The position numbers were made by a program, and so were the translations under genes. The notes under the pieces were generated by a model. It was not told the origin of the DNA. It searched no databases and saw only the letters and a list, made by a program, of their open reading frames with translations. Shown here one piece after another: positions 123 through 8,798 of a stretch of 21,815 nucleotides of DNA. Source of the stretch: an uncultured Collinsella sp. (GTDB taxonomy: Bacteria; Actinomycetota; Coriobacteriia; Coriobacteriales; Coriobacteriaceae); contig USQE01000004.1 of NCBI GenBank assembly GCA_900556675.1, forward strand, positions 1 to 21,815, given 5' to 3'. Each line of letters opens with the position of its first letter. Within the stretch, counting starts at the first letter, position 1.

Positions 123-180
123 TTCATCTAATAAATTGCATTAATGGCTCGAGTTTCGGGGGAAACGAGGCAACGTGACT

Positions 181-732
181 ATGACATGCTCTTTGGTGGT
201 CAACAGCAAGAGCGGTAATACCAGGATGGTTTCGGGTGCGATCAAGCGCACTCTGCAGGCTGCGGGCGTTGAGTTTGTCCATGCCGCGGCGTTGAGCGAC
301 GATGCGGATGCAGATCAGGTTGCGCTCGAGGCGCAGGGCGCCTGCGCGGCCGACACAGTGCTCGTCGGTTTTTGGTGCGACAAGGGCGCGTGCACGCCTT
401 CGGTCGCGGCGTTGCTCTCCGCCTTGCACGGCAAGCGCGTCTTTCTGTTTGGCACCTGCGGTTTTGGGGCCGACCAGAGCTATTATCAGCAGATTATCGA
501 TCGTGTGACCTCCAATTTGGCTGAGGATGCCGAGCTTGCGGGTTGGGCGATGTGCCAGGGCAAGATGGGCCCTGCCGTAAAGCAGCGCTACGAGGCCATG
601 CTCGAGCAAGATCCCGACAATGTCCGCTTTAAGATGCTGCTCGATAACTGGGTCGCCGCAAAGGATCACCCCACCAAGGAAGATCTGGACAACATGGCTG
701 CAGCCGCCAAAAAGGCCGTGCTGGGGGAGTAG
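181..732 (+). CDS. Short flavodoxin-family protein (possibly BilS-like)
   Basis: A soluble protein of about 183 aa with a single flavodoxin-like fold. The N-terminal SLVVNSKSGNTRMVS segment is the FMN phosphate-binding loop (S/T-x-S/T-G-N-T). The middle GFWCDKGACTPSVAALL and VFLFGTCGFG segments and the later MCQGKMGP segment are typical of a compact group of anaerobe flavodoxins that, as I recall, includes BilS, the flavodoxin partner of the gut bilirubin reductase BilR. No bilR-like gene is in the window, so that role is only a possibility; a general electron-carrier role is the safe call. ATG 181 is preferred because GAGG at 167-170 lies 10 nt upstream. An in-frame GTG at 175 would have only 4 nt spacing. 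The gene is monocistronic here, with its own candidate promoter, and is followed by a large hairpin element. Confidence 0.75.
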   Translation: MTCSLVVNSKSGNTRMVSGAIKRTLQAAGVEFVHAAALSDDADADQVALEAQGACAADTVLVGFWCDKGACTPSVAALLSALHGKRVFLFGTCGFGADQSYYQQIIDRVTSNLAEDAELAGWAMCQGKMGPAVKQRYEAMLEQDPDNVRFKMLLDNWVAAKDHPTKEDLDNMAAAAKKAVLGE

Positions 733-774: not shown

Positions 775-902
775 CGTCCTCCCGGGCGTCGGGGCACGAA
801 GTTCCCTGCTCTACAGTCCTGCGCAAGACGAAGGCCACATTAAGTGGCCTTCTTTGCGTACGGAACTCGCGATGAACTTCGTGCCCGCCGCCCGGGAGGA
901 CG
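775..902 (+). repeat. Large hairpin element A: conserved 71-nt core inside a 28-bp variable stem
   Basis: Left arm 775-803 and right arm 875-902 are complementary except for one mismatch and one bulge. They enclose a core (804-874) that carries its own hairpin GAAGGCCAC / GTGGCCTTC (830-838 / 844-852) followed by TTTGCG, which can extend the stem by pairing with CGCAA at 822-826. The same core occurs in reverse orientation at 6157-6228 with about four differences, but there it is closed by a different stem. Element A starts 42 nt after the flavodoxin stop codon, in the sense orientation of that gene. It may therefore act as a 3'-UTR structure or terminator, or be a small mobile hairpin. I do not recognise a named family. 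Confidence 0.8.
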
Positions 903-1510
903 CCTCTTTATTGATGGGAGGCCTGATAGGTCGATGGTTCCGTGCCCGGATGCGTCCAAAGTGGGACGGGCTTTCCGGATGGGCAGGCTTTCGAAAAATG
1001 CGTCCCGGAATTTGCCTTTGGAATGGGACGTAGTTTCCCGTTGAGGTGCTTTGCGGAAAGTGCATCCCACTCTGGGCGGTCGAAGTGGGACACACTTTCC
1101 CAAAGGCGCTCCAACGGGAAATTGCGTCCCATTATTCGGTCAAGAAACGGGATGCATTTTCCCAATGAGAGCAAAACCGGAAAATGCATCCCACAATCAG
1201 CCCTCAAAGTGGGACGCCGTTTCCCAATGAGGCTCAAGCGGAAAATGCATCCCGGAATTTGCGCTCAAAGTGGGATGCGGTTTCCGGTTGAGGGTCTAAG
1301 GGGAAAGTGCGTCCCAGAATCGACGCTTGAAATGGGATGCAGTTTCCCGATGAGGCACTCGACGGAAAATACATCCCAGAAATGGCCTTTGAGCTGGGAT
1401 AAGATTTCCGCGGCATCTCGGATTCTCAAAAATGAGACACGTGATATCGGGCATCGGATGTAGCATTTGCAAAAATGAGTCCACTCCACTCGAATAAAGC
1501 GAGGTCCCTC
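903..1510 (+). other. Non-coding leader region upstream of the surface protein gene
   Basis: This stretch of about 600 bp holds no credible gene. Bases 903-949 are unassigned. Bases 950-1410 are the 62-bp repeat array. Bases 1411-1510 form a short leader with a small hairpin (TCTCA/TGAGA around 1422-1437) and the ribosome binding site GAGG at 1501-1504. I could not identify a convincing -35/-10 pair. Open frames across the array (for example 942-1463 plus and 908-1237 minus) arise from the repeat being low in stop codons and are not considered coding. Confidence 0.6.
950..1410. repeat. 62-bp tandem array of inverted half-sites (array 1)
   Basis: Seven complete units start at 963, 1025, 1087, 1149, 1211, 1272 and 1334. 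They are flanked by a right half-site at about 950-957 and a left half-site at 1396-1410. Each unit is a left half close to GGGACGCACTTTCC, a loop of about 16 bp resembling CAATGAGGCTCAAC, a right half close to GGAAAATGCGTCCC, and a spacer of about 18 bp resembling AGAATCAGCGCTCAAAGT. The two halves are mutual reverse complements, so half-sites alternate in orientation with centres about 31 bp apart. The period is 61-62 bp, not a multiple of three, which argues against a protein repeat. Units have diverged, most of all in loops and spacers, unlike CRISPR repeats. Function unknown. Confidence 0.9.
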
Positions 1511-4500
1511 ATGTACGTTCCACACCCCCGTATCCGTAGGCTGTCGAAAATCCCGCTTGTTGGGACGGCGGCGCTTGCTGCGTTGATCGCCACGAGCGTC
1601 GCCTGCTTCACGGCCACGCCCCAGGTTGCCCAGGCGGCAGACGCGCCCGCAATCACCGATATGACCGAGCAGGATTATCAAGCCCTGGGTCTGGGCACGA
1701 GCGAGGACATTCCGGCCGATACCATTGGCCCCTATTCCACTGATACCCCCACGACGTTTGCCACGCGCAGCGAGGTCTATATGGCAGCTAACGGTAGCCA
1801 TGGCAATCGCTACACTCTGCGCGACAAGCTCGAGAACGTCGAGCGCGGTGACATTGGCGGCAGCAGCAAACTCACCGATGGCTATGGAAGTGTGTGGGGC
1901 GCCGCAAAGTTCTGGCAAAACGTCAACAACTTCGATACGAACAGCGATCTCTACAAGCATAGCGACTACGGTGGCGGCACCTGGTCGTACCTAAGCAACA
2001 ATGAGTCCTCAACAGTACTCGCCAACGACAACAACGGTTTCTCGGGCATTCACGCCACGAGTGTTGAGTTCTGCAGCGACGCCAGCACGGGCAAAAAGAG
2101 CCGCGTTGCCGAGCTCCGTGCCTACGGCGACAGTTCCTCCACGACGATTGACGGCAAGTCATACGCCGGAAAGGTTGAGCTGGTCCTCTACTCGTTTAGC
2201 AACGGGCGTACGCGCACTCTCGACACACACCTGCCGGTGACGGTCAACACTAATATGATGTACGAAGGCCGTTTTAAGTACCTGGATGCCGGTTACCTGC
2301 AAGAGCACGACGCCGTCTTTGATGTCGAGGCGGGCGATGTCGATGGCGACGGCGTCGACGAGCTTTTTGTCTACGCGGGCTGCTATGTCGACGAGAACGG
2401 CGTGCGCAAGGCTGTAGTCGACATGTATGACTTGGAGGGCGGCAACTGGAAGCAAAGCGTCGTCAAGATCGATGCCGGTAACGCCGCGGACTACACCACG
2501 CACAACAAGGGCGGGAACGACTCCTGGACGCAGCTTCAGTCAGCTCCTGTCGTTTCGCTAGCGGCCGGCGACCTCGATCGCGATTTTTGCGATGACCTCG
2601 CCATCGTGGTCTCGGCACCCTACGGCAAGAAGAATATTGATAAGTCGACGCATTGCGAGCTGTTTTCGTGGGATGCATCCAAGGGTGCGCTCGTCCATGT
2701 CGATGCTCTGGGCGACGCGGGCGCAATCTCCCTCTCCGCGAACGGCAAGACCATGGTCGCTGCGAATGCGACGTTCGGCACGTTTGCCGCCTACGATGAA
2801 GAAGGAAAGAAGACGGGTGAAACCGTCACGGGCCTTATTCTTGCGGGCTATGACTGGCAACGCAGCGCTTTTGATTACGGCGCTTCTGACGGCAGCAAGG
2901 GGCTGTACGGCGCGCTGTACCGCTACGCGTATTTTGACTCGGAGTCTGGCGAGTTCAGGCTTTCCGATTGCAAGGAATACAGAGACGGGCTCCTCGCCTC
3001 CTATGGGCTGATGCATGTGCCCAACAGCGCATGGAAGGATAGCGCTCAGGATAAGCGCTATCCGTGCACCTTGGCGCCTATTGCCCTTGCCACTGCCAAC
3101 CTTGACGGCCTGTCCGAGCAGCTGGCGGTCGACGAGGTGCTCGTGGGCGGCGATGTGTTCCGCGACTTTGCCTGCAACACGGCACAGAGCGGGGCTCAGG
3201 GCTTGGGGTCCATGGTCGGAACCATGAGCATGAGCGGTCAGCAATACAACAGCAGCAACAAGCATGACCACAAGGGTATAGAGCAGGTGTGGATCAGCGA
3301 CGTCAAGGCGGGCGGCGTCTCGGGTTCGGACCGCTATAACGAGAGCTTTATCGCCGTGGTGGGCAAGCACCGCGACGAGGACCTGCGCAAGAACGATGAC
3401 TACTATTGGATGACCGCCTCGCATTTTTCGCTCGACGAGAACGGAAAGGTGCGCCGCGGCGAGGAGCAGGTGATTAGCGAGAGCAACCGTCGCGGCACTA
3501 CCTACGGCACATTTATCTCGCTCGCGCTGCCCGATGTCGACAACGACAGCGTCAAGATCACGTACAAGGACCGCTACAAGGTCTATATCAACCCGCGCGT
3601 GCTTGCCGTGCTGCAGGATGCGCCCTATGTTGAGGATCTGGAGCAGGCATACGGCTATCTGGTGTTGGGCGGCACGTCATACGGAGAGGAAAAGGGCACA
3701 GGGACTTCCCAGGGCTATACCATTGGCGCCGAGTTGGGCGTTGCCGTCGAGGTGCAGACCGGTCCGCCCCTGGTCGCGATGAATGCTTCAGTCGATTTTG
3801 CCGCCGAGGGATGCTATGACTACCGGAGCGAGCGCACGGTCAGCGCAAGCGTAAGCTATGAGTCGCATGCCGGCGAGGGTGACAAGGCCGTGCTCTACAC
3901 GATTCCGATGGTCTATTACGAGTATGAGATCGAAAATGAGGAAACTGGTGGCAAGGGCGTGATGGCGGCGCCCGTGTCGCTCGGCGCGCAGACCTCGGTC
4001 GTTAATGTCGAGGCCTATGACCGCATTGCCAAACAGCACAATATGACGCCGCTCAGCTACTTTTTGACCAACCGGTCGGGAGAACCCGGAACCTATCAAA
4101 CGACGCTCAACGGCGAGACTCCCGTTGGGGATTCCTTTGGCCTGGGCAAGCCTGGCGTAACGCGCGCCTACACGCACGATGGGTTTAACGGCGCCGCCGC
4201 GCAGTCGGGGGCGAGCATTGAGCAGACCATCGAAGTCGAGGAGGGCAAGGAGCAGGAGCTCGAGCTCGGCTTGACGCTGAACGGCAGCGTTGTCATGGGC
4301 GCGAAGCTCGCAAAGCACGAGTTGTTTGGTGGCCTGTGCTTTGGTGCCAACGCCGGCTTTACTACGGGTAACTCCTCGAGTGAATCGACCGAATACGGCG
4401 GCACCGTCGACAACCTGCCCGAGGCCGCGCAGGGCAAGTACGGTTTTGTGTGGCGTCTGGGCGTCAACGCGGTGGATGTCGACAAGTTCGAGGCAGACTC

Positions 4501-5599
4501 GGGCGACAAGCTCGGCACCAAGGACACCGACCAGTTCTGGATCGTGGGCTATGACGTTAAGGACGTCGAGACGCCCGACGCGCCGGCCGTGACGGGCTTT
4601 ACGGCAAACGCCGTCGATTCGACCAGCGTTACGTTTAGCTGGGACGATGTACTCGCAAACAAGAGTGGCTTTAGCTACGGCGTGGGCATGCTGCAGAGCA
4701 ATGCGGCGGATGCGGTCGTCAATAGCTGGAAGATTGCCGACAACACGCAGACCTCGCTCAAGTGGGATGGGCTGCAGCCCAATACGGAGTATCGATTCGC
4801 CATCGCCGCCGTTAAGAATGGATCCACGACCGAAACAGGTATTCGCTCGGCAATCATCACGGTCAAGACCATGCCCGATGGCATGACGATGACCGTGAGC
4901 GGACCTGCGGCGGATGCTGCGGAGGGGTCGGATCTTGGATACGACTCTTCGGTTGAGCGCGCGGCGGGAAGCCACCTGACGCTCTCGGCGATTGGCCATG
5001 TGAAGCAACTCGGTGCCGACGATAGCGAAACAGGGCTGGCACCGACCTATATGTGGTACCGCAAGGGCCGCGGCGAGACAGAGTTTAAGCTCGTGGGTGC
5101 CGATGGCAACCTCGCGGCTGGAACGGCCTCAAAGCTCGAGATTGACCTGACCGCAGACGATGACGGTGCGCAGTATTACTGCCACGTGGGATACAACGAC
5201 GTGGGCCTCGACACCGGCACGACGCTCGTGAATATCGAGGCCGAGGAGACGGCGCCCACAACGGTGAACGCCACCCCGATCCGCACGCGCCGCCTGTTCT
5301 CACAGGCAAGTGCGGGCGCCAAGAAGTTCCTGGACCATACGCTGGTAAACACCGCCGGCCCAACCGATTCCGAAGGCTCAAAGGACCCCGAGGCTCCTGA
5401 GACCCCGACGAACCCGGACAAGCCCAAGCCCGACAACGGAGCTAAGACCGACACCAAGGTCAAGACTACGACCACAGCGAAGAACCTCGCAAACACCGGC
5501 GACCAAACATTCGCCCTAGTCGCCACCGCAGCAGCAGCGGGAGCAACGCTCGTAGTGATAGCCCTCATCATGCTGATCAAGCGCCGCAAGACCCACTAG
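1511..5599 (+). CDS. Large sortase-anchored surface protein with FG-GAP-like, FN3 and Ig-like segments
   Basis: A secreted, wall-anchored protein of about 1362 aa. Start ATG 1511 is chosen because GAGG (1501-1504) lies 6 nt upstream and the protein then begins with a clean signal peptide: basic N-terminus, hydrophobic core LVGTAALAALIATSVA, and a probable cut after AQA near residue 40. An upstream in-frame ATG at 1475 has no ribosome binding site. Calcium-loop-like FG-GAP/VCBS motifs occur near residues 275-286 (GDVDGDGVDEL) and 352-365 (GDLDRDFCDDLA), with a weaker one near 673, suggesting a beta-propeller-like region. Residues about 1022-1121 look like a fibronectin type III domain and about 1125-1246 like an Ig-type domain ending in DDGAQYYCHVGY. 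A Pro/Lys/Thr-rich wall spacer precedes LANTG (1326-1330), a hydrophobic stretch (1333-1356) and tail KRRKTH: a sortase signal with Ala in place of Pro. Ligand unknown; adhesion or glycan binding is plausible. A Rho-independent terminator follows. Confidence 0.85.
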   Translation: MYVPHPRIRRLSKIPLVGTAALAALIATSVACFTATPQVAQAADAPAITDMTEQDYQALGLGTSEDIPADTIGPYSTDTPTTFATRSEVYMAANGSHGNRYTLRDKLENVERGDIGGSSKLTDGYGSVWGAAKFWQNVNNFDTNSDLYKHSDYGGGTWSYLSNNESSTVLANDNNGFSGIHATSVEFCSDASTGKKSRVAELRAYGDSSSTTIDGKSYAGKVELVLYSFSNGRTRTLDTHLPVTVNTNMMYEGRFKYLDAGYLQEHDAVFDVEAGDVDGDGVDELFVYAGCYVDENGVRKAVVDMYDLEGGNWKQSVVKIDAGNAADYTTHNKGGNDSWTQLQSAPVVSLAAGDLDRDFCDDLAIVVSAPYGKKNIDKSTHCELFSWDASKGALVHVDALGDAGAISLSANGKTMVAANATFGTFAAYDEEGKKTGETVTGLILAGYDWQRSAFDYGASDGSKGLYGALYRYAYFDSESGEFRLSDCKEYRDGLLASYGLMHVPNSAWKDSAQDKRYPCTLAPIALATANLDGLSEQLAVDEVLVGGDVFRDFACNTAQSGAQGLGSMVGTMSMSGQQYNSSNKHDHKGIEQVWISDVKAGGVSGSDRYNESFIAVVGKHRDEDLRKNDDYYWMTASHFSLDENGKVRRGEEQVISESNRRGTTYGTFISLALPDVDNDSVKITYKDRYKVYINPRVLAVLQDAPYVEDLEQAYGYLVLGGTSYGEEKGTGTSQGYTIGAELGVAVEVQTGPPLVAMNASVDFAAEGCYDYRSERTVSASVSYESHAGEGDKAVLYTIPMVYYEYEIENEETGGKGVMAAPVSLGAQTSVVNVEAYDRIAKQHNMTPLSYFLTNRSGEPGTYQTTLNGETPVGDSFGLGKPGVTRAYTHDGFNGAAAQSGASIEQTIEVEEGKEQELELGLTLNGSVVMGAKLAKHELFGGLCFGANAGFTTGNSSSESTEYGGTVDNLPEAAQGKYGFVWRLGVNAVDVDKFEADSGDKLGTKDTDQFWIVGYDVKDVETPDAPAVTGFTANAVDSTSVTFSWDDVLANKSGFSYGVGMLQSNAADAVVNSWKIADNTQTSLKWDGLQPNTEYRFAIAAVKNGSTTETGIRSAIITVKTMPDGMTMTVSGPAADAAEGSDLGYDSSVERAAGSHLTLSAIGHVKQLGADDSETGLAPTYMWYRKGRGETEFKLVGADGNLAAGTASKLEIDLTADDDGAQYYCHVGYNDVGLDTGTTLVNIEAEETAPTTVNATPIRTRRLFSQASAGAKKFLDHTLVNTAGPTDSEGSKDPEAPETPTNPDKPKPDNGAKTDTKVKTTTTAKNLANTGDQTFALVATAAAAGATLVVIALIMLIKRRKTH

Positions 5600-5665: not shown

Positions 5666-5688
5666 TGTTGAGTGGAGACTCCGCAAGC

Positions 5689-6041
5689 GGAAACTGCATC
5701 CCACAATTAGCGCCCGGAACGGGACACATTTTCCGTCAAGCCCTCATCCGGAAAATCCATCCCAGTTTGAGCGCCCAGACCGGGACGCACTTTCCCAAAG
5801 GGTCCTCAACGGGAAACTGCGTCCCATAATTAGGCCGAGAAATGGGATGAACTTTCCCAATGAGAGCCAACCGGAAACCACGTCCCAGAATCAGCCCCCA
5901 AAGTGGGACGCACTTTCCCAACGAGCCTCAACCGGAAAATACATCCCGGAATCCAGCTGAATAGTGGGACACACTTTCCCAATCGGGTCCCAAGCGGAAA
6001 CTGCATCCCATTCCAGACAAGAATTCCGGGATACACTTTCC
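5689..6041. repeat. 62-bp tandem array of inverted half-sites (array 2)
   Basis: Same family and same orientation as the array at 950-1410. Five complete units start at 5721, 5782, 5844, 5905 and 5966. They are preceded by a right half-site (5689-5702) and followed by a left half-site (6028-6041). Steps between units are 61, 62, 61, 61 and 62 bp. Loops such as CCCAATGAGAGCC and CCCAACGAGCCTC match loops in array 1, so the two arrays are direct repeats on either side of a gene of about 4.1 kb. They could mediate deletion or duplication of that gene by homologous recombination. Confidence 0.9.
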
Positions 6042-6050
6042 GCAAACAAA

Positions 6051-6073
6051 GAAGGCCACATAACGTGGCCTTC
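6051..6073. terminator. Small hairpin matching the inner hairpin of elements A and B
   Basis: GAAGGCCAC (6051-6059) and GTGGCCTTC (6065-6073) form a perfect 9-bp stem with a 5-nt loop. The stem is identical to the inner hairpin of element A, and the preceding CGCAAACAAA resembles the flank in the minus orientation of the core. It may be a decayed partial copy of the element or a terminator stopping transcription out of array 2. The T-run is short on both sides (TTCAACTT; TTCTTTG on the minus strand). Confidence 0.55.
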
Positions 6074-6127
6074 AACTTATATATGTTCGGCGATACACCC
6101 AAGACAAGCCACGCTCCAACAACAGGG

Positions 6128-6257
6128 CGTCTGTCCGGGCGGAGGTATGTAAGGTTCATCGCGAGTTCCGCACGCAAAGGAGGCCACTTAATGTGGCCTT
6201 CGTCTTGCGCAGGACTGTCCGAGCAGGGAACCTTATATGCCTCCGCCCGGACAGACG
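6128..6257 (-). repeat. Large hairpin element B: same core, different closing stem
   Basis: Arms 6128-6156 and 6229-6257 (29 nt each) are complementary with only two non-Watson-Crick positions, both of which would be G-T pairs on the plus strand. The enclosed 72-nt core (6157-6228) is the reverse complement of the core of element A, about 95% identical. The outer arms are unlike those of element A except for a few bases next to the core. On the minus strand the element starts 27 nt after the stop codon of the LTA-synthase-like gene, the same position and orientation relative to its upstream gene as element A. Confidence 0.8.
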
Positions 6258-6284: not shown

Positions 6285-8585
6285 CTACTTGATCTTGGTC
6301 GTGCCCGGCGCCAGGTTGGGGTCGGTCTCGTTGGCCTCGGTCTGGAAGTGCTCGGTGTACACGTTCTTGCCATCGCGGAACATCTCGTAGTACTGCATCT
6401 TGGCGTAATCCTCGCGCGCCTTGGTGGCGGCTGCGGCTTCGGCGTCGTCACCGGTGACGTTGGAGGAGAGCGCCCAGCGCAGGCTGGCGTCCTCGTAGCC
6501 CACCGAGTTGATGGCGGGCAGCGACTCACGCAGCGTCATGTGCGCCTTCTGGTAGTCGGAGAGGGGTGCGCCGATCAGCTGCATAAGCTGCGTGGACAGG
6601 TAGTTGGTGGACAGGTCGTCGACCTCGCTCGTCTGGTCGCAGCCGGCAACGTCGTAGTTGGCCCAGATGATGTAGTCGGTCTGCCACAGACGCTCCTGAT
6701 GCGTGGCGTCGTCCTCACCGGTAAACCACTTGTCGTTGAACTTGGACGGGAAGAACGGCTGGTGATCGCCCCAGAACACCACGACCACCTTGCGGTCGAG
6801 CTTGCTCAAGGCGTTAAGGAAGTAGCACAGCGCCTGGTCGGACTGCTCGATGCACGAGACGTACTCGTCGACATCGGAGAGCGTGCCGTCCTCGACGGTC
6901 TTGGCGTCCAGATCGGTCGTGTCGATGTTCAGGTGCATCTGCTTGTCGACCGGCAGCAGGCCCGTGTCGTAGCCCGAGTGGTTCTGCATGGTCACGTCGA
7001 AGATAAACTGCGGATCGGCGTTCTGGTCGAGCAGCTCAAGAATCTTGTCATAGGTCGCCTGGTCGGTCACCATACCGCGCAGAGTGTCGGCTCCCTGGAA
7101 GTCGTTGATGGACAGGAACCGGTCAAAGCCAAAGTCCTTGTACACGTTCTCGCGGTTCCAGTTGGTGGCGTGGTTGGGGTGCATGGCCGTGGTGGAATAT
7201 CCGAGCGACTTGAACTGCTCTGCCAGGTCCCCGGTCGTTTCCATGTTGTAGATGGTGTAGGGGTACACGCCCGAGCCCAGGTTGGCCATGGAGTTGCCGG
7301 TCATAAACTCAAACTCGGTATTGGCGGTACCGCCGCCGTAGGCGCTCACGTAGAGCTTGCCGCGGCTGAGGCAGTTGGACAGGTTCTTAAAGTACTGCGG
7401 TCCCTCGTAGCCGGCGCGCATGTTCTGGTAGATCGACAGATCCGAGAAGGTCTCGTTCATGATGGCGATGACCGTGGGCTTCTCGCTGTCGAACTGCTCC
7501 TTTGCGGCGGCGCGCTCATCGCTCTTAGCCGCGTCGGATTTGTCATAGGCCTTGGCGTACTTTTTGAGCGTGGCTTTGGCATCGTCGACGGAGTAGTCGG
7601 CGGGTTTGGGCGGCTTGATAGACTGCGCTGCGCTAATGAAAGCGGGCAGGTAGCCCTCGCGCCAGTAGCTCTCGAGCGGGCGCCAGGTGTAGACGGTGAT
7701 GCCGAGGGTGTTGTAGTAGTCGATGAGCGTGACGTGTGCGGTCACACCGCCCAGGCACAGCACGGCGACGAGCAGGTTGGTGAGCAGCATGCGCTTGGCG
7801 TTGGCGGCGCCCTTCTGACGGTGCGGTGCCACCAGGCCGGCGTACTCGCACAGCAGCATGGCGATGGCGGTAAAGCCCATGGACAGCACGCAGAACAGCG
7901 AGATCGAGAAGGTGTAGCCGGTGCCGGCGACCGCGGCGGCGGTGGAGATGGCCGAAAGGTCGCCCGGCTGGATGGGCATGGATTTAAACGTGATGACGAA
8001 GAACTCGGCAATGCCCAGGACAAAGAGGGCAAAGGCCAAGACCGCGGGGGCTGCGCCGTGGCGCTGGAACAGGAAGAACAGGCCGACCATGAGCGTGGTG
8101 ATGATGGCCCACTCGAGCAGGATGCACAGGGGGTAGACCCAGGTAAAGTCGTGGTTGGACGAGACCTCCATGCCCAGCAGCGCAAAGACGCCGGCGAGCA
8201 GCAGGCACAGGACGGCGGCGACGAGCGGTTTACCCACAAAGGCTCCGCGCAGGCGGGCGAGCTTGCCGGTGGGGGCGGGGGCGTCGGGCCCGGCGAACGC
8301 AAAGACGCGCGGGGCGATGCGGTCGCGGGCGATGCTGGCCCAAGCGCAGCCGGTGAGGATGGCGTTGGTCAGGATGAGCATCACAAAGGCGAGCGGCTCG
8401 TTTTGAGCGACGAGGCCCACGGCGCCCCAAATAGTCAAAAAGACCTGGAACAGGCCGAAGGCGACGCTCCACCCAAGAGCGCTTTTGGCAACGGTGCCCG
8501 ACTGAGCGCGAATGGCCTTGGCCTCGCGCAAGACAAGGTAGACGGTCGCCGCAAGACCGACGAGCGAGATGGCGGCAGCGAACAT
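6285..8585 (-). CDS. LTA-synthase-family membrane protein (sulfatase fold)
   Basis: A polytopic membrane enzyme of about 766 aa. Start ATG 8585 follows a perfect GAGGAG with 7 nt spacing; a GTG at 8600 would add five residues but overlaps that site. The N-terminal half has roughly eight hydrophobic segments, more than the five of classical LtaS. The C-terminal half is an extracellular alkaline-phosphatase-superfamily domain. Visible motifs are NETFSD (metal ligand E378), GGGTANTEFEF with probable nucleophile T420, HPNHATNWNRENVYKDFGFDRF-like substrate-loop residues, MQNHSGY, and WGDHQP with metal ligands D607/H608. The family transfers glycerol-phosphate or related groups from lipids to wall or lipid polymers. 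The exact polymer here is unknown, and Coriobacteriia envelopes are poorly characterised. It is divergent from the nitroreductase gene across 213 bp and convergent with the surface protein gene. Confidence 0.85.
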   Translation of the reverse strand: MFAAAISLVGLAATVYLVLREAKAIRAQSGTVAKSALGWSVAFGLFQVFLTIWGAVGLVAQNEPLAFVMLILTNAILTGCAWASIARDRIAPRVFAFAGPDAPAPTGKLARLRGAFVGKPLVAAVLCLLLAGVFALLGMEVSSNHDFTWVYPLCILLEWAIITTLMVGLFFLFQRHGAAPAVLAFALFVLGIAEFFVITFKSMPIQPGDLSAISTAAAVAGTGYTFSISLFCVLSMGFTAIAMLLCEYAGLVAPHRQKGAANAKRMLLTNLLVAVLCLGGVTAHVTLIDYYNTLGITVYTWRPLESYWREGYLPAFISAAQSIKPPKPADYSVDDAKATLKKYAKAYDKSDAAKSDERAAAKEQFDSEKPTVIAIMNETFSDLSIYQNMRAGYEGPQYFKNLSNCLSRGKLYVSAYGGGTANTEFEFMTGNSMANLGSGVYPYTIYNMETTGDLAEQFKSLGYSTTAMHPNHATNWNRENVYKDFGFDRFLSINDFQGADTLRGMVTDQATYDKILELLDQNADPQFIFDVTMQNHSGYDTGLLPVDKQMHLNIDTTDLDAKTVEDGTLSDVDEYVSCIEQSDQALCYFLNALSKLDRKVVVVFWGDHQPFFPSKFNDKWFTGEDDATHQERLWQTDYIIWANYDVAGCDQTSEVDDLSTNYLSTQLMQLIGAPLSDYQKAHMTLRESLPAINSVGYEDASLRWALSSNVTGDDAEAAAATKAREDYAKMQYYEMFRDGKNVYTEHFQTEANETDPNLAPGTTKIK

Positions 8586-8798
8586 GCTGAGACTCCTCAC
8601 AAACTAAAACGTACGAAAGCGGGGGTTTACCCGATTGTTACCAAGATATGCGCTGCAATTGGTGTCTGCGCACAACAACCAGCCATATTAACGCGCACGT
8701 GTGGCGGTGTGGCGCAATGTAGTGGCGACCTGCGCGATAATGGACGGGAATTACACGGAAACGTAAAGGCTTCTTAAAGAACTAGCGAGGATGAGGCG

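Follow-up and report, generated by a model that had tools for sequence, protein, structure and literature searches.

The locus analyzed here raises the question of how a stem can keep its two arms complementary while their sequence changes. The window, meaning the whole 21,815-nt stretch of Collinsella DNA that was analyzed, contains two inverted copies, A and B, of an element in which a shared core is closed by long stems. Stems whose two sides change together are commonly accepted as demonstrating a functional RNA, and a sequence-only reading of the window had seen in A and B the signature of selection on structure, possibly in a 3' element or an unusual terminator, or else a core that inserts into the loops of pre-existing palindromes.

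Two inverted copies of a hairpin element

The features of the window are as follows.

775-902, plus strand: copy A, whole element; inverted relative to B
775-803, plus strand: copy A, left outer arm; pairs with 874-902; arm sequence differs among species and copies
806-821, plus strand: copy A, conserved box 1, CTGCTCTACAGTCCTG; columns mostly invariant or near-invariant in 30 copies; recognizable in class-level relatives
830-852, plus strand: copy A, apical helix, GAAGGCCAC-ATTAA-GTGGCCTTC; covarying pairs in the alignment; repeat family D6
858-872, plus strand: copy A, conserved box 2, GTACGGAACTCGCGA; columns mostly invariant or near-invariant; recognizable in class relatives
874-902, plus strand: copy A, right outer arm; pairs with 775-803
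6128-6257, minus strand: copy B, whole element; inverted relative to A
6228-6257, minus strand (the sense strand of B): copy B, left outer arm; 30 nt, 93% complementary to 6128-6157
6210-6226, minus strand: copy B, conserved box 1; from the A/B alignment and a model match at 6146-6240, minus
6179-6201, minus strand: copy B, apical helix; from repeat family D6 and the fold
6159-6173, minus strand: copy B, conserved box 2; from the A/B alignment and the model match at 6146-6240, minus
6128-6157, minus strand: copy B, right outer arm; from the inverted repeat and the fold
175-732, plus strand: Flavodoxin_3 gene, stop codon ahead of copy A (PF12641, E 1.1e-37)
6285-8600, minus strand: sulfatase-domain gene, stop codon ahead of copy B (PF00884, E 6.4e-41)
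1475-5599, plus strand: 1374-aa ORF with an fn3 domain, between A and B (PF00041)

Alignment of A and B bore out the coordinates and general description of the sequence-only reading. The common core forms inverted repeats that are 97% alike over 65 nt (813-877 and 6154-6218), with few differences between the copies, and the stems are self-complementary within each copy (775-803 with 874-902 in A; 6128-6157 with 6228-6257 in B). The description of the stems as non-homologous needs qualification, in that the arms have diverged in the alignment but still share TGAAACGTC, CCGGGCG, and CCGCCCGG...GACGCC. Each copy is predicted to fold as one long hairpin, the two lying in opposite orientations in the window, and each fold is very stable when compared to dinucleotide shuffles (z of -10.8 for A and -8.7 for B, with 0 of 200 shuffles as stable for either copy). 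The distances to stop codons also stand: A begins 42 nt past the stop codon ending at 732, and 27 nt separate the end of B from the stop codon (6285-6287) of the sulfatase-domain gene on the minus strand. A phosphoglycerol-transferase-like role may be proposed for this gene.

Additional repeats are present in the window. Two blocks made up of 61-62-bp repeats (GGGACGCACTTTCCC.../GGAAAATGCATCCC), at 957-1400 and 5685-6043, flank the 1374-aa ORF and also match each other as inverted repeats. At 6038-6078, next to a CGGAA-like remnant, there is an isolated relative of the apical hairpin (GAAGGCCACATAACGTGGCCTTC) that lacks the full boxes, and a piece resembling it occurs in the complete genome G003 (locus L055).

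A dispersed family in the class Coriobacteriia

A and B are members of a dispersed family of non-coding palindromic elements of the class Coriobacteriia. The earlier assessment was limited to the two copies visible in the window; this limit is now lifted, many copies per genome having been found in many genomes. A 77-nt core query matched 35 of 43 genomes of the genus. The core and covariance-model search that had been proposed for Collinsella and Coriobacteriia showed the family to be widespread: a covariance model built from 30 of 34 thinned copies (L012, L018, the plus-strand copy of L033, and L058 were omitted, their arms being poorly paired) matched 61 of 65 genomes of the family and 101 of 197 of the order. 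The highest count in one genus genome was 49 model matches, in G003. Searches at the class and phylum levels used stricter filters and capped scoring, so their counts are lower bounds: at least 115 of 246 class genomes matched at E <=1e-5, with 19 of these outside the order and carrying one or two matches each, and at least 15 of 296 genomes matched in a phylum sample that included few class genomes from outside the order, all 15 belonging to the same order as Collinsella.

Named carriers are the Collinsella loci of site A (the site of copy A) and the record NZ_OY725717.1. This record, labelled plasmid 6 of Collinsella aerofaciens (899,693 bases), gave the single match among plasmid records; it carries genes for ribosomal proteins along with fusA and groEL, and appears to be a piece of a chromosome. 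No match was found to the core among phages, or to one exact pattern among viral contigs. Contigs stop at or near copies of the element in several cases (L061, L069, L174, L246, and contigs C43 and C44 of G001), and draft genomes therefore probably undercount it.

Conserved boxes and variable arms

In the element, a variable apical helix is flanked by two conserved boxes, CTCn(n)ACAGTCCT and TGCGGAACTCGC, and long variable arms close the structure. The boxes oppose each other across an internal loop, beyond which lies an outer arm of about 28 bp in A and B. The columns of the boxes are mostly invariant or near-invariant in the 30-copy alignment, and by eye the boxes can be recognized in class-level copies in which the arms and the apical helix differ. 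Selection probably acts on the boxes, given that they are strongly conserved although in part unpaired. The element matched no Rfam family: Rfam 15 gave 0 matches in the window at the gathering score, permissive E-values yielded at the element sub-threshold matches only (miRNA types and one IRES), none of them convincing, and the one above-threshold match in the fetched loci was an L31 leader in L214, far from the element.

Pairing of the arms was determined for 140 distinct copies, orthologues included. The median was 33 Watson-Crick arm pairs, with a total of 4466; 136 of the 140 copies had at least 8 pairs, and four had 3 or fewer. Many copies with unpaired outer arms would speak against a structured element; the arms were found to pair in nearly all copies. 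Covariation, the other check that had been suggested, was evident in two comparisons: both sides changed at 20 of 29 pairs in the 30-copy alignment, a count that leans toward pairing because the four poorly paired copies were omitted, and 122 of 150 changed pairs were compensated at 17 orthologous sites (described below).

The arm sequences themselves are largely unrelated between sites, a short inner stretch excepted. In genome G214, 15 of 20 copies have in common the inner arm GAGCTCAGTCGCTC together with its mismatches, while their outer arms are unrelated and mostly well paired. Mismatched arms were found at L155, L165, L096, and L073, as well as at L012 and L018, and fit recombination inside the core. 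At L147 and L157, arm types and core types occur in new combinations. Recombination within the core is thus visible both as mismatched arms and as new combinations of arm and core.

Arm change at orthologous sites

To follow change in place, the flanks of 12 sites of G003 were located in 12 related genomes, 10 of which provided stretches. The core was matched in 117 of 128 stretches (those of G003 included), indicating that most of the sites are old; of the 11 stretches without a core, 5 were at L046 and 2 were cut by contig ends. Sites of genome G120 contributed 60 further stretches from three relatives. From 530 same-site, same-orientation pairs we dropped 163 with flanks less than 85% identical and 74 with unequal arm register or weak pairing, leaving 293 pairs in which both flanks were at least 85% identical.

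The arms outpace their flanks, and mostly with both sides changed. Flank divergence in the 293 pairs was 5.1% per nt and arm-pair divergence was 30.4%; note that an arm pair represents two positions and that the flanks may be coding, so the like-for-like excess in rate is perhaps threefold or less. Of 1841 differing arm pairs, 1526 had become another Watson-Crick pair, the remainder being one-sided changes to G-U (90), to A-C (64), or of other kinds (131), and pairs unpaired in both copies (30). Because the 293 pairs are not independent, we also scored the most different pair at each site. At 17 sites, with a flank divergence of 6.9%, 150 arm pairs had changed, 122 of them compensated and 27 one-sided, these being counts from a comparison of present-day copies that does not prove simultaneous change of the two arms. 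The arms of a copy paired with each other at a level of 0.95, compared to 0.61 when paired with the partner arm from the other genome. Flank divergence at L034 is 0.9%, yet 18 arm pairs have changed, 17 of them with compensation. Changes occur in blocks, an example being TTT/AAA to AC/GT. In contrast, where site A has an ordinary terminator, alignment shows its 7-bp stem to be identical in all 15 of the 15 genomes concerned.

Position relative to genes

The sequence-only reading had proposed a 3' element based on the position of A and B behind stop codons. We used a simple, crude gene finder to place 62 copies in G003, G120, and G214; 14 were called inside genes (6 in G120 and 8 in G214) and were left out of the distance test. 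Of the 48 placed copies, 23 follow a co-directed gene, 18 run antisense to the genes on either side, and 7 are found between divergent genes. Sense copies hug the stop codon, with 22 of 23 beginning within 52 nt after it and three overlapping the called gene end, and for antisense copies the stop codon of the facing gene is at a median distance of 169 nt (27 values). This difference is significant by Mann-Whitney test (p 3.4e-6), also when tandem cases only are compared (14 versus 18 values, p 3.8e-5). The proposed placement therefore describes the sense copies but not the 25 of 48 copies that are not behind a co-directed gene. Similarly, the annotated record NZ_OY725717.1 contains ten copies, four in the sense orientation behind a stop codon (of PNPase, two hypothetical proteins, and TsaD) and six antisense to both neighbors, including copies in the regions ahead of rplC, rpsL, groES, and thrB. 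Sense copies could plausibly act at 3' ends, but these numbers indicate that this is not a rule for the family as a whole. In the same record, a convergent pair of copies (L389, positions 52526-52893) separates the genes for two RNA-decay enzymes, ribonuclease J and PNPase.

Site A was compared in 21 genomes, including the window. Six have the element and no ordinary terminator (one being cut by a contig end); the other 15 have an ordinary terminator, and in nine of these a minus-strand copy is found 260-562 nt past the stop codon. The 1374-aa ORF was found in four of 20 named Collinsella loci (L243, L249, L250, and L253), exactly those with a complete copy A, and the two may thus have arrived together; in this tally L246, cut inside A, ends before the ORF, and some of the remaining loci do not extend far enough to show whether it is present.

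Selection on RNA or copying of DNA

These positions bear upon the possibility that the element is a structured RNA at gene 3' ends, either an unusual terminator or a hairpin conferring stability, with arms that covary under selection for the RNA stem. The sense copies close to stop codons, the complementary distribution of element and ordinary terminator at site A, the stable folds of A and B, and covariation at 20 of 29 pairs would all be explained in this manner. An RNA helix under selection tolerates G-U but not A-C, which allows for a discrimination between RNA and DNA, although the yardstick is a general expectation rather than one calibrated on structured RNAs of the same genomes. Mismatches in the arms of the 140 copies, read on the element strand, comprised 40 G-U and 39 A-C. 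Among 114 site clusters, in which some orthologues are still split, the numbers were 92 and 81 (p 0.45). When 98 copies of 11 sites, each oriented singly, were read on the mRNA strand, the numbers were 57 and 79 (p 0.07). The opposite trend was found only in the pairwise count of one-sided changes given above (90 G-U to 64 A-C), which is made over non-independent pairs.

The core can also be inverted. At L039, the core of G003 is inverted relative to that of nine other genomes, and the G003 arms match those of L133; in total, there were 11 inverted pairs among the same-site comparisons. The core at L046 is inverted as well, but there the rest of the intergenic DNA is dissimilar, and this core could have been inserted separately. 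On the 3' side of the arm, T reached a frequency of 0.43 at position 1 and 0.15-0.32 beyond in the 114 site clusters, so that only the first position is enriched and there is no U-tract. This pattern differs from that of an intrinsic terminator, which requires a G+C-rich stem followed by a U-tract. The element also departs from a structured cis-regulatory RNA, for which covariation is present but a G-U preference on the transcribed strand (57 versus 79) is not.

The absence of a G-U excess in three counts, the invertible core, the missing U-tract, and the six of ten antisense copies in the annotated record, some ahead of rplC, rpsL, groES, and thrB, all argue against selection on RNA structure, and we consider an RNA element distinctly unlikely. 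The sequence-only reading was right to see covariation and probably wrong to read it as RNA. The lack of a G-U preference and the invertible core favor arm-to-arm copying of DNA over selection on RNA.

Insertion and mobility

We also considered a small mobile unit, made up of the core and inner arms, that inserts at the centers of palindromes, the outer arms being what remains of the target or of previous insertions, arranged in onion-like layers. The inner arm GAGCTCAGTCGCTC and its mismatches shared by 15 of 20 G214 copies with unrelated outer arms have this appearance, as do several sites where outer arms are kept while inner arms and core subtype differ, and L034, which by eye lies within a larger A/T-rich palindrome. 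Nesting is seen in G120, where at L273 and L295 one element is found inside the center of another, the half-boxes of the outer copy being visible on both sides. Against insertion of this kind, the sites examined yielded no empty palindrome in orthologous position, the core-free stretches L144, L173, L244, and L247 retain part of one arm only, which fits deletion, and most positions are old, a core being present in 117 of 128 stretches from 12 sites. The earlier suggestion of a core inserted into palindromes thus gains the two nested copies but has against it the lack of empty palindromes and the change of arms in place at fixed sites; overall, we regard it as unlikely.

The arms are inverted repeats, as in a MITE, but are not shared between sites, and there was no clean empty site at which a target-site duplication could be scored; the Collinsella sites are mostly occupied, and in the genus of G120 several intergenic regions differ wholesale. 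The sequence YRACCTG is found just outside one arm (left flanks) in several G120 copies. As a general motif outside the arms, ACCTG was rejected, being present in 13 of 114 left and 7 of 114 right flanks compared to a background of about 5%, a weak enrichment.

REP, BIME, and REPIN sequences are short dispersed intergenic hairpins, present in tens of copies, often as inverted pairs, and associated with RAYT transposases. The present family is similar in its dispersed intergenic hairpins, tens of copies, and inverted pairs, but differs in that an internal two-box core is conserved while the long stems are free to vary. Movement as a REP-type element by a RAYT-like Y1 transposase would be consistent with the hairpin shape, with four close convergent pairs in G003, and with the finding that, of 64 genomes searched, all 4 copy-free genomes of the family lack a Y1_Tnp match. 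However, 8 genomes carry copies without a Y1_Tnp match, and none of 20 picked RAYT-like loci had a copy of the element within about 3 kb, so that copies flanking a RAYT gene, as expected for membership in a REP/RAYT system, were not seen at any of these 20 loci. Hairpins beside some RAYT-like genes have other sequences, such as those around GGGTCAGACCC in L377 and L378. We consider such mobilization very improbable, and our search for a recognizing protein among Y1/RAYT transposases found none. The hairpins at L377 and L378 share GGGTCAGACCC or its complement, and their stems differ yet remain paired, making them a possible second case of this mode of stem change.

Comparison with known systems

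No published account of the element family was found in a search of mostly open-access papers. Integron attC sites conserve structure over sequence and act as folded hairpins with conserved outer ends. The present element is similar in keeping structure more than sequence in a folded hairpin, but differs in that conservation falls on the inner boxes and variation on the outer arms. ERIC copies are conserved over their whole length, unlike the present copies with outer arms unrelated between sites. ERIC/IRU (PMC2759123) and other enterobacterial repeat units resemble this family as intergenic repeats of about 100-170 bp that have been likened to MITEs. REP is named in PMC8040213, which also lists 250 palindromic candidate RNAs in a table.

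The closest likeness in mode of change is to template-switch hairpins and quasipalindromes. In the available parts of these reports, template switching between inverted repeats in yeast gives homogenization of the arms and inversion of the spacer (PMC8604942), and template switching is argued to create and maintain hairpins (PMC8794818). Paired arm changes, multi-nucleotide compensated swaps, and spacer inversion are common to those hairpins and to ours. The cases in these parts concern yeast coding genes and rRNA hairpins, unlike the dispersed family with a conserved core at many sites described here.

A dispersed palindrome with an unusual mode of arm evolution

Our preferred explanation, in which we place about even confidence, is that A and B belong to a dispersed palindromic element whose arms are kept complementary mainly by arm-to-arm copying at the DNA level and whose boxes are kept for their function. 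The copying would occur by template switching or quasipalindrome correction during replication; it would fix changes on both arms, replace blocks of arm sequence, and could invert the spacer, here the core. The 122 of 150 compensated changes and the inverted core at L039, as read from present-day copies, fit this process. Arm copying alone would homogenize the internal loop as well; the boxes have instead been kept, making selection on them probable. Their conservation suggests a function, most likely recognition of the folded hairpin by a host or mobilizing protein, and this function would be what lets them escape homogenization. Sense copies behind a stop codon would probably also supply a stable hairpin end to the mRNA, replacing an ordinary terminator.

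Template switching by itself leaves the excess of arm over flank change and the replacement of whole elements unexplained. Arms subject to nothing but template switching would be expected to take up substitutions no faster than neutral flanks, and a mutation hotspot, allele replacement, or diversifying selection must be invoked as well. The swaps of whole arms and core subtype at L034 look like the replacement of one element by another. A further reading is an active system operating on folded DNA: a protein would recognize the two-box core once the hairpin is extruded and cause the arms to be rewritten or exchanged, giving each copy a private self-complementary address around a fixed core; we consider this quite improbable.

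What is new here, relative to other dispersed bacterial palindromes, is a variant with an unusual mode of arm evolution. The family provides a natural test bed for distinguishing covariation driven by replication from that due to selection on RNA. Strong covariation without a G-U preference also serves as a warning for RNA-discovery pipelines, and the conserved boxes may point the way to a protein that binds hairpins in these common bacteria of the gut.
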